Made by a program: the position numbers and the translations under genes. Source: Mucilaginibacter myungsuensis (lineage in GTDB: Bacteria > Bacteroidota > Bacteroidia > Sphingobacteriales > Sphingobacteriaceae). Taken from it: 64,000 nucleotides of DNA. The stretch spans positions 62,001 through 126,000 of the forward strand of contig NZ_JADFFL010000002.1 of NCBI RefSeq assembly GCF_015222005.1, written 5' to 3'. The notes under the pieces are model-generated. The model saw nothing but the letters and a program-made list of their open reading frames with translations, searched no databases and had not been told where the DNA came from. Positions 37,546-41,424 of this stretch are shown piece after piece (the stretch's first letter is position 1; each line of letters begins with the position of its first letter).

Positions 37546-37575
37546 TTGACCAATAATTTTATTCTTCTATTTTTG
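37546..37575 (+). promoter_or_regulatory. consensus promoter of the isomerase/ThuA operon
   Basis: TTG (37546-37548, in TTGACC) and TATTTTTG (37568-37575) are separated by exactly 19 bases, a full match to the Bacteroidota -33/-7 consensus. Transcription would begin near 37582, about 108 bases before the isomerase ATG. Confidence 0.7.
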
Positions 37576-37587
37576 CAATCGATTGCA
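37574..37587. promoter_or_regulatory. LacI-type operator palindrome TGCAATCGATTGCA
   Basis: A perfect 14-base palindrome with the central CG typical of LacI/GalR-family operators starts inside the -7 box and covers the predicted transcription start. A bound repressor would block RNA polymerase. No LacI-family gene is in the window, so the regulator would have to be encoded elsewhere. Confidence 0.65.
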
Positions 37588-37689: not shown

Positions 37690-38628
37690 ATGAAAGGCGA
37701 TCAACTATCCCGAAGAAGATTTATTACCAATGGCGCTATTGCATTAGCGGGCACGTTCATTTTACCTAAGATAAGTTTTGCTAACAACTACTTAGGTTGG
37801 GCAAAACCAAATTCGGTGGTAGGTGGGGTGCAGATCGGGGTGATCACTTATTCGTTTCGCAGTATGCCGGGGACGGTTGATGACCTGCTGAAATACTGTA
37901 TCGATTGCAACATCAGCGCTATTGAACTGATGGGCGATGCTGCCGAAGTTTTTGCCGGTATCCCAAAACGTGATCAGGCTTTAAGTCGCGAAGAGAACGC
38001 TAAAAAGATAGCCGAATGGCGCGCGTCCGTACCGATGGATAAGTTTAAAGAGTTGCGCAAAATGTACAACGATGCCGGAGTGAAGATCTACGCCTGGAAA
38101 CCGACCGCGCTGGATGCCCGCCATACCGACGAGGAGATAGCCTATGCCTTCAAGGCCGGCAAAGCCATGGGCGCAAGTCACTGTACCGTGGAGTTACCTA
38201 ATGATACCCAGACCGCCCGCTTGGGCAAAATAGCCGAGCAGCAAGATATGAAAGTAGGTTACCATGCTCACACGCAAGCCACCCCAACCCTTTGGGACAA
38301 AGCCATGGAGCAAAGCAAAGCCAATTGCATCAACCTTGATCTGGGTCACTATGTATCAGGCACAAGTAGCAGCCCGGTGCCGTTCTTAGAGAAGAACCAC
38401 GACCGTATTGTAAGCATGCATATCAAAGACCGCAAATTCAACAACGGCCCTAACGCCGTTTGGGGCGAAGGTGATACCCCGATCAAGGATGTGTTAAAGC
38501 TGGTCAAAAAAAATAAATGGAAATTCCCGGTGACGATAGAGCTGGAGTACAACGTCCCTCAAGGATCTGATGCCGTAGCCGAAGTTAAAAAATGCCGTGA
38601 GTTTGCTGCCGAGGCACTATCATCGTAA
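37690..38628 (+). CDS. exported sugar phosphate isomerase/epimerase (xylose isomerase-like TIM barrel)
   Basis: This 312-residue protein has a twin-arginine-like signal (SRRRFITNGAIALAGTFIL with RRR), suggesting export of a folded enzyme. The mature part is a TIM barrel of the AP endonuclease 2 / sugar isomerase superfamily. Visible blocks are GVITYSFRSMPG, ISAIELMGDAAE, YNDAGVKIYAWK, VGYHAHTQATP, INLDLGHYVSG with the metal-binding Asp/His, RIVSMHIKDRK, and VTIELEYN with the C-terminal glutamate. It is 45 bases upstream of the ThuA/dehydrogenase gene and shares its promoter and operator. Which sugar it uses cannot be read from the sequence. Confidence 0.87.
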   Translation: MKGDQLSRRRFITNGAIALAGTFILPKISFANNYLGWAKPNSVVGGVQIGVITYSFRSMPGTVDDLLKYCIDCNISAIELMGDAAEVFAGIPKRDQALSREENAKKIAEWRASVPMDKFKELRKMYNDAGVKIYAWKPTALDARHTDEEIAYAFKAGKAMGASHCTVELPNDTQTARLGKIAEQQDMKVGYHAHTQATPTLWDKAMEQSKANCINLDLGHYVSGTSSSPVPFLEKNHDRIVSMHIKDRKFNNGPNAVWGEGDTPIKDVLKLVKKNKWKFPVTIELEYNVPQGSDAVAEVKKCREFAAEALSS

Positions 38629-38673
38629 TATATCATCAACCCTCTATAACCAAGACACCCGATAAACCATAGT

Positions 38674-41424
38674 ATGAAATTCAGTTTCCCCCGCGTTGTT
38701 AGCGCGTTCCTGTTAGTGACATTTGCCGCCACGGGCCTTACTCAAGCTCAGGTAAAGCGTAAGTCCGCCGCTCCTGTTAAAACCAAGCCAAAGGTGTTGG
38801 TGCTGACCATTACCAAAGGCTACCGCCATGGTTCTATCCCCAAAGCGGCCGATGCCATTATTAAATTAGGTGCCGAGAACGGCTTTGCGGTCGATACGAC
38901 CAGCGACGTGACCAAGCTGAACGACGTTAATCTGAAACAATACGCATCGCTGATATTTGCCAGTACCACAGGCTCGTTCATGAACGCGGCACAAAAGGTG
39001 AGTTTGCAGCGTTACATCCAATCGGGTGGTGGTTTTGTGGGTATCCATGCCGCGGCCGATGCCCAGTACGATTGGCCCTGGTACGTACGCATGGTTGGCG
39101 GCTGGTTCGCTCATCACCCTGACCAGCAAATGGCCACTATTACGGTGACCGACAAGAACAACATTTCTACCAACATGCTCCCTGCCGAGTGGAAACGCAA
39201 GGACGAATGGTATCACTATAAAAATGTAGGTAAGGATCTACACATCCTGCTTAATCTGGAAGAATCATCCCTGACCTATAACAAAAACGGCAGCAGCGAT
39301 AAATTTAAAATGGGTGCCAGTCACCCCATTGCCTGGTACCACGATTTTGAAGGCGGCCGCGTGTTCTACACCGGATTGGGCCATACAGATGAGTCGTACA
39401 CCGAGCCGCTGTTCCTGCAGCATTTGTTAGGCGGTATTAAATACGCTATCGGCAATAATGCACCGTTGAACTATGGTAAAGCCAAAGTACAGGCTATGCC
39501 CGATGCCAACCGCTTCAGCAAGAACTCCCTGGTGACCGGCGGCTTTTTCGAGCCTACCGAAATGACCATCCTTCCTAACCTGGATATCTTGGTAGCCCAA
39601 CGCCGCGGCCAGATCATGAAGTATGATCACATCACCAAAAAGATCAGTCAGATCGGTTACATCCCTGTTTATCACCACGTGGTAAGCGCCAAGGATGTGA
39701 ATGCCGAAGAAGGTTTGTTAGGCATACAGATAGACCCGGATTTTAAGACCAACAACTACCTGTACATGTACTACAGCCCGGTAGATAGCAACGTTAACCG
39801 CCTGTCGCGTTTTACATACCGCAATAACAAGATCGATCAAACCACCGAGAAGGTGATCCTGGAAGTAAAGACCACCCGCGAAATCTGCTGCCATACCGGC
39901 GGATCCATCGCCTTTGGTAAGGATAGGATCATGTACATATCGCAAGGCGACAACACTACGCCATTTGACGAGCCGATGCCTAAGGGTAAAAAGCTCCCGA
40001 ACACCTACTCTTATGCCCCGCTGGATGACCGCCCGGGTTTTGAACAATACGACGAAGGCCGCTCGGCAGGTAATACCAACGACCTGCGCGGTAAGATCAT
40101 GCGTATCAAAATGAATTTGGACGGCACTTACAGCATCCCCGAAGGTAACCTGTTCCCGAAAGGGACGGACAAGACCCGTCCGGAGATCTATGTGATGGGT
40201 AACCGTAACCCGTACCGTATCTCTGTCGACAAAAAAAGCGGCTTCCTTTACTGGGGCGAGGTTGGCCCCGATGCCAGCAATGATAGCTTGGCCACCCACG
40301 GTCCGCGCGGATATGATGAGGTGAACCAGGCAAAAAAGGCAGGCAACTTTGGCTGGCCTTTCCTGATCGGTAACAACATCCCTTACCGCTCTTACGATTA
40401 CGCTACCGGCAAGTACGGCGAGCCTTTTGATAAGAACAAGCCGCTAAATAACTCACGCAATAATACCGGCTTAAAAGAATTGCCTGCCGGAACCCCTGCT
40501 TTTATCTGGTATCCATACGCTGATTCGCCTGAATTTCCTGAGGTTGGTAGCGGCGGCCGTACCGCTATGGCTGGTCCTGTATATCACTCCGAAGATCACC
40601 CGAGTGCAGTGGGCAAACTACCAGCTTACTATGATAATAAGCTATTCATTTACGATTTTGTGCGCGGCTGGATCAAAGTGGTGACCATGGACGAGAACGG
40701 CGATCTGGAATACATGGAACCATTTATGAAGGGTACCCAGTTCAACAGTATGATCGATATGGAAATGGGGCCTGACGGTAAACTATACGTGCTGGAATAC
40801 GGCACGGGCTGGTTCTCTGAAAATAAAGATTCGGGCCTGACCAGGATAGAGTATAACGCGGGCAACCGTGCACCGGAAATATCTGCCGTGGCTGCTAATA
40901 TGACCTACGGTACTTTACCGCTGACCGTAACCTTGACCGCCAAAGCTACCGATCCAGAGAAAGATAAGATCACTTACGTATGGGATCTGGGCAATGGTAT
41001 CAAAAAGACCACCCTCGTACCTAAGCTGAGCTACACGTACACCAAAGAAGGCACCTACGATGTGACCGTTGTTGCAAAGGACAGCAAGCTGGCCACCAGC
41101 AAACCAAGCAAAAAGTTACAGATAGCTGCCGGCAGCGCAGATGAACCAGTTGATCCGTCTTTACCATTTGCTGATGGTAAAGCGCTGATGCTGACCCTGG
41201 ATTGCAAGGTTTGCCACAAGACCGACGAGGTATCGGTTGGTCCGTCATTCACAGCCGTAGCCAACAAATACGACAAGAACGATAAGACCTTTAAAACCTT
41301 GGGCGAGAAGATTATTAACGGCGGTACCGGCGTTTGGGGCGACGTAGTAATGCCTGCCCACCCAAGCTTGAAACCCGAAGAAACCAAAAAGATCCTGAAC
41401 TGGATCATGTCGTTAAAGAAATAA
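38674..41424 (+). CDS. ThuA - PQQ-type sugar dehydrogenase - PKD - cytochrome c fusion protein
   Basis: This 916-residue exported protein has four parts. After the signal peptide (VSAFLLVTFAATGLTQAQ), a ThuA-like domain (about 40-260) contains GYRHGSIPKAADAI, GGGFVGIHAAADAQYDW and GRVFYTGLGHTDESY. A six-bladed glucose/sorbosone dehydrogenase propeller (about 285-715) has VAQRRGQIMKYD, EEGLLGIQIDPDF, HTGGSIAFGKD and MGNRNPYRIS. A PKD domain follows (about 730-810, FTAKATDPEKDKITYVWD-like). The last 90 residues are a cytochrome c with CKVCHK and the axial Met in VVMPAHPSL. Such a fusion would oxidise a sugar in the periplasm and pass electrons to the chain; the ThuA part suggests keto-sugar metabolism (inference). 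Confidence 0.92.
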   Translation: MKFSFPRVVSAFLLVTFAATGLTQAQVKRKSAAPVKTKPKVLVLTITKGYRHGSIPKAADAIIKLGAENGFAVDTTSDVTKLNDVNLKQYASLIFASTTGSFMNAAQKVSLQRYIQSGGGFVGIHAAADAQYDWPWYVRMVGGWFAHHPDQQMATITVTDKNNISTNMLPAEWKRKDEWYHYKNVGKDLHILLNLEESSLTYNKNGSSDKFKMGASHPIAWYHDFEGGRVFYTGLGHTDESYTEPLFLQHLLGGIKYAIGNNAPLNYGKAKVQAMPDANRFSKNSLVTGGFFEPTEMTILPNLDILVAQRRGQIMKYDHITKKISQIGYIPVYHHVVSAKDVNAEEGLLGIQIDPDFKTNNYLYMYYSPVDSNVNRLSRFTYRNNKIDQTTEKVILEVKTTREICCHTGGSIAFGKDRIMYISQGDNTTPFDEPMPKGKKLPNTYSYAPLDDRPGFEQYDEGRSAGNTNDLRGKIMRIKMNLDGTYSIPEGNLFPKGTDKTRPEIYVMGNRNPYRISVDKKSGFLYWGEVGPDASNDSLATHGPRGYDEVNQAKKAGNFGWPFLIGNNIPYRSYDYATGKYGEPFDKNKPLNNSRNNTGLKELPAGTPAFIWYPYADSPEFPEVGSGGRTAMAGPVYHSEDHPSAVGKLPAYYDNKLFIYDFVRGWIKVVTMDENGDLEYMEPFMKGTQFNSMIDMEMGPDGKLYVLEYGTGWFSENKDSGLTRIEYNAGNRAPEISAVAANMTYGTLPLTVTLTAKATDPEKDKITYVWDLGNGIKKTTLVPKLSYTYTKEGTYDVTVVAKDSKLATSKPSKKLQIAAGSADEPVDPSLPFADGKALMLTLDCKVCHKTDEVSVGPSFTAVANKYDKNDKTFKTLGEKIINGGTGVWGDVVMPAHPSLKPEETKKILNWIMSLKK

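Follow-up and report, generated by a model that had tools for sequence, protein, structure and literature searches.

A predicted LacI-family operator at the promoter of an isomerase and ThuA-dehydrogenase fusion operon in Mucilaginibacter

The window analyzed in our study, a stretch of DNA of 64,000 nucleotides, belongs to the genome (5.09 Mb in 23 contigs; G000) of a soil bacterium of the genus Mucilaginibacter. It harbors two neighboring genes which are preceded by promoter elements and a palindrome:

37546 to 37548, plus strand: TTG of the -33 element, read directly and separated from the -7 box by 19 nt
37568 to 37575, plus strand: -7 element TATTTTTG, 6/6 fixed bases of TAnnTTTG
37574 to 37587, no strand assigned: palindromic operator TGCAATCGATTGCA, a predicted LacI-family site (perfect palindrome, recurrence, co-conservation with the regulator LacI1)
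37690 to 38628, plus strand: isomerase-like TIM-barrel protein of 312 aa (Pfam AP_endonuc_2, PF01261), with an export signal recognizable in its N-terminal sequence
38674 to 41424, plus strand: fusion protein of 916 aa composed of ThuA, glucose/sorbosone dehydrogenase, PKD and cytochrome c (Pfam PF06283, PF07995, PF00801, PF00034)

The two genes are separated by 45 bp on the same strand, with the fusion as the second gene of the predicted operon, and we infer that they are read on one transcript.

Sigma-A promoters of Bacteroidota consist of a TAnnTTTG -7 box that is preceded at a distance of about 19 bp by a TTG/TTTG element (PMC6847099), and in Flavobacterium the -7 element is found at -12 to -5 (PMC6847099, PMC9723704). 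The segment from 37546 to 37575 conforms to this type with all six fixed bases and an N19 spacer. A preliminary description had reported TTG-N19-TATTTTTG and, directly after it, a perfect palindrome covering the predicted transcription start, and direct reading confirmed these elements at the stated coordinates: TGCAATCGATTGCA equals its own reverse complement, is an even palindrome with the center CG, and its first two bases are the last two of the TATTTTTG box (37574-37575). As the TAnnTTTG box sits at -12 to -5, +1 is predicted at about 37580 and the palindrome would span -6 to +8. Palindromes of 14 bp as such are not rare in the window (3 compared to 3.9 expected). Therefore, the significance of TGCAATCGATTGCA lies in the recurrence of its exact sequence and not in its being palindromic.

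In the whole genome the exact 14-mer occurs three times, each copy just 5' of a carbohydrate-type operon, compared to 0.02 copies expected from base composition. The core GCAATCGATTGC is present in five copies (0.29 expected on the same basis) which are all located just upstream of a gene:

Site 1: 37574-37587, before the isomerase/fusion operon
Site 2: about 29 bp 5' of a GH95 gene that is followed by BNR/CBM9 and GH5-type genes
Site 3: 45 bp (59 from the first base of the site) 5' of a second ThuA gene, behind which a DUF7133/cytochrome c protein is encoded
Site 4: about 14 bp 5' of a GH99-like gene
Site 5: with one mismatch, between xylB-xylA and the LacI gene of contig C10, which is followed by galM

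Matches with up to two mismatches were at chance level (17 compared to 25 for the reversed control), so that only core-conserving sites were retained. A one-mismatch site at C1:621754 was excluded, as its core is broken and its neighboring genes are not sugar-like. The preliminary description had asked whether the palindrome recurs near other sugar genes or is common at random positions. Both in this genome and in its relatives it recurs upstream of carbohydrate genes and not at random positions.

The description had likewise asked for a LacI-family gene in the genome, and three such genes are indeed present, on contigs C1, C7 and C10. The one on C10 carries the motif just 5' of its start:

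G000:C10:164530-165579: LacI1, opposite xylBA and before galM, with PF00356 and Peripla_BP domains

The motif lies 53 bp upstream of the matched frame with one mismatch to TGCAATCGATTGCA; the same site thus precedes the LacI1 gene itself in an autoregulation-type arrangement. The adjoining xylA matches the NCBIfam equivalog TIGR02630, and the best family of the kinase is XylB TIGR01312 at a score below the cut-off (303 vs 380 bits). With the genes for xylose isomerase and xylulokinase adjoining both LacI1 and its operator, LacI1 resembles XylR-type regulators. The operator 5' of LacI1 was kept in 30/30 orthologue loci, at about -38 to -57, and in 19/21 further ones including other genera of the family, that is in 49/51 loci overall from Mucilaginibacter and related genera. 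It was also found in 24/24 named genomes including Pedobacter, a set that possibly overlaps with the 51 loci. Named relatives of the LacI protein group the genome with Mucilaginibacter. Motif, position, recurrence and co-conservation with LacI1 are direct observations. Moreover, the central CG, the position before the start codon and the promoter overlap fit LacI-family operators (PMC4052901), in agreement with the earlier reading of the palindrome. We therefore consider it highly probable that TGCAATCGATTGCA at 37574-37587 is a LacI-family operator, most likely that of LacI1, which would repress the isomerase/fusion operon until an inducer is present.

The strongest competing explanation is a LacI-family operator that is served by the C1 or C7 protein, or an effector other than xylose, for instance glucuronate or another glycan product. 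The genome does contain these two further LacI genes, and the motif is also present in relatives at a LacI paralogue that neighbors uxuA and glucuronidase-like genes. This second paralogue (36-39% identical) adjoins exact sites at six loci (L026, L044, L113, L125, L131 and L143), so that it and LacI1 may share one motif; use of the motif is hence not restricted to a single protein. However, no motif copy with up to three mismatches was found near the C1 or C7 LacI genes, and the C1 gene is preceded by another palindrome, CGTTCCCGGGAACG. The recognition helices of both proteins differ from that of LacI1; in contrast, A17 of the recognition helix and the ASNLR hinge are common to LacI1 and the second paralogue and missing in C1 and C7. 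Since LacI1 is moreover flanked by xylA, xylB and galM, control by the C1 or C7 protein or by a non-xylose effector appears unlikely. The perfect palindrome CGTTCCCGGGAACG lies at L023:7884-7897 (contig C1 of G000) between a uxaB-like gene and the LacI gene. We regard it as a candidate operator for a further regulon.

Across the genus, 175 exact sites were detected in 71 of 150 Mucilaginibacter genomes, compared to 2 for the reversed pattern. Genomes with LacI1 contained an exact site in 59 of 93 cases vs 12 of 57 without it (Fisher p = 4e-7, a value that is overstated because related genomes are not independent but were counted as such). The 12 genomes with sites but no LacI1 count against the assignment to LacI1. 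All sites were intergenic in the 40 wider loci that were read. Their neighbors were mostly xylan/xylose genes and included xylB, uxuA, LacI genes, SusC receptors and hybrid two-component regulators, together with enzyme-like genes resembling GH10, GH43, GH67, GH115, GH3, GH51 and GH35, labels that were assigned by eye from protein N-termini. Besides, an ECF sigma-factor-like and an anti-sigma-like gene diverge from either side of one exact operator (L028, G035:C1:670673).

Of the 127 exact sites that were oriented, 11 have a perfect TAnnTTTG box ending in the first two bases of the palindrome, whereas 2.2 were expected from flank shuffles. These comprise the site at 37574 and others 5' of GH67-like, GH10-like and xylB genes in relatives. 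Only the count of 6/6 boxes against flank shuffles was used as the geometry statistic, and a peak of 5/6 boxes at the palindrome edge was set aside as it mostly results from the fixed TG of the palindrome. A second enriched geometry places the operator near -43 to -30, a region from which some regulators activate. This would be in line with a bound protein that activates the operon or merely modulates it. At 37574-37587, however, the palindrome covers the predicted start from -6 to +8. A protein bound at this position should obstruct RNA polymerase, and for this reason we expect repression and regard activation or modulation as improbable.

The operator had initially been assigned to the isomerase and the fusion alike, and this holds for the fusion only as a conserved target. 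Among 37 relative loci no operator was found before isomerase orthologues (60-75% identical; L111 was poorly oriented), and in none of the 37 was the isomerase followed by a fusion gene. In contrast, relatives of the ThuA-GSDH-PKD-cytochrome c fusion occur in 69/150 genomes, and 14/29 relatives carry an operator variant with up to three mismatches 34-166 bp 5' of the fusion, 11 of them with up to two, where the chance of a match with up to three mismatches in 260 nt is about 0.01. The operator therefore probably belongs ancestrally to the fusion. We infer that the isomerase later came between operator and fusion in this species, and as its orthologues lack the operator, control of the isomerase would be peculiar to it. 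The center of the fusion operators was CG in 12/12 genomes with LacI1 and in 0/5 without it (p = 1.6e-4, kinship ignored); this comparison includes the site at 37574 as well as G123 and G096, whose variants sit farther upstream of the fusion, the one in G123 preceding a ThuA-fusion gene pair. In G053 and G118 the sites 5' of the fusion fall within a TolC-like coding sequence and were discarded. At L182, L184, L187 and L277, all without LacI1, the operator arms are kept 5' of the fusion or of a ThuA partner around the center CT, AT or AG, and such arms may be read by another protein. The possibility that TGCAATCGATTGCA stands at this promoter as a chance sequence would fit the chance-level number of 14-bp palindromes in the window and the operator-free isomerase orthologues, but it is very improbable given that TGCAATCGATTGCA matches exactly a motif which throughout the genus is associated with a LacI gene, that its promoter geometry is common to other promoters of the set and that fusion relatives carry operator variants.

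The operator of the ThuA-DUF7133 operon was also detected in G001 as an exact copy and in G037 with two mismatches; in both, a cytochrome c gene comes first. Stand-alone ThuA orthologues had a site with up to two mismatches within 1.45 kb in only 1/29 cases, at -467. Moreover, ThuA-type genes adjoin LacI1/xylAB in G004, G026, G029, G069 and G105. The cluster L268 (G069:C1:10000-26000) contains PQQ-dehydrogenase-like, isomerase-like, GMC oxidoreductase-like, hydrolase-like and two ThuA-like genes (named by eye), followed by an operator, LacI1, a further operator, xylB and xylA.

Under the reading we favor, LacI1 would sit on the start point at 37574-37587 without inducer and block initiation for both genes, the isomerase and the ThuA-dehydrogenase-cytochrome c fusion. 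LacI1 would then be released by its inducer, for which D-xylose or a sugar derived from xylan is probable because xylBA and galM adjoin LacI1. Repressor binding, the identity of the inducer and the sign of regulation are here predictions from DNA sequence. LacI1 is also predicted to control xylBA/lacI, the GH95-BNR-GH5 operon, the ThuA-DUF7133 operon and the GH99-like gene. More tentatively, LacI1 might in Mucilaginibacter also run a periplasmic oxidation branch in which PQQ-type dehydrogenases and cytochrome c are joined to ThuA domains by fusion or linkage, which would place ThuA proteins in the oxidative handling of xylan-derived sugars. The analysis provides a testable regulator, an operator and a likely inducer for a ThuA-dehydrogenase fusion.

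XylR of Caulobacter is a LacI-type xylose repressor. LacI-family repressors tied to xylose genes have been described in other phyla (review PMC10766802). Such repressors resemble the system described here in the LacI family and the xylose genes but belong to another phylum and promoter type. In the literature searched, which covered few subscription papers, no LacI xylose regulon was found for Mucilaginibacter or Sphingobacteria. Thus, the type of switch is well known, and the gene set under this operator appears not to have been described previously. LacI regulons characterized by comparative genomics share the even palindrome, the central CG, autoregulation, the sugar genes and sites about 140-30 bp from the start codon with our findings (PMC4052901). 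However, the palindrome is 14 bp long here instead of the usual 16-22, and the text of that study does not mention Bacteroidetes or XylR. The periplasmic 3-ketoglycoside pathway is a form of periplasmic sugar oxidation in Caulobacter and Pedobacter (PMC9007349). The GMC oxidoreductase-like and isomerase-like genes beside ThuA genes and LacI1 in G069, recognized by eye, are reminiscent of it, whereas the operon at 37690-41424 lacks a DUF1080 domain in Pfam. XylR of Bacteroides thetaiotaomicron (BT0791) also governs xylose catabolism genes in Bacteroidota but is a member of the NrtR family (PMC3878776), whereas the regulator in our study is of the LacI family. Our results hence suggest that Mucilaginibacter and Pedobacter have a xylose/xylan regulon of the LacI type, in contrast to the NrtR-type XylR of their Bacteroides relative.
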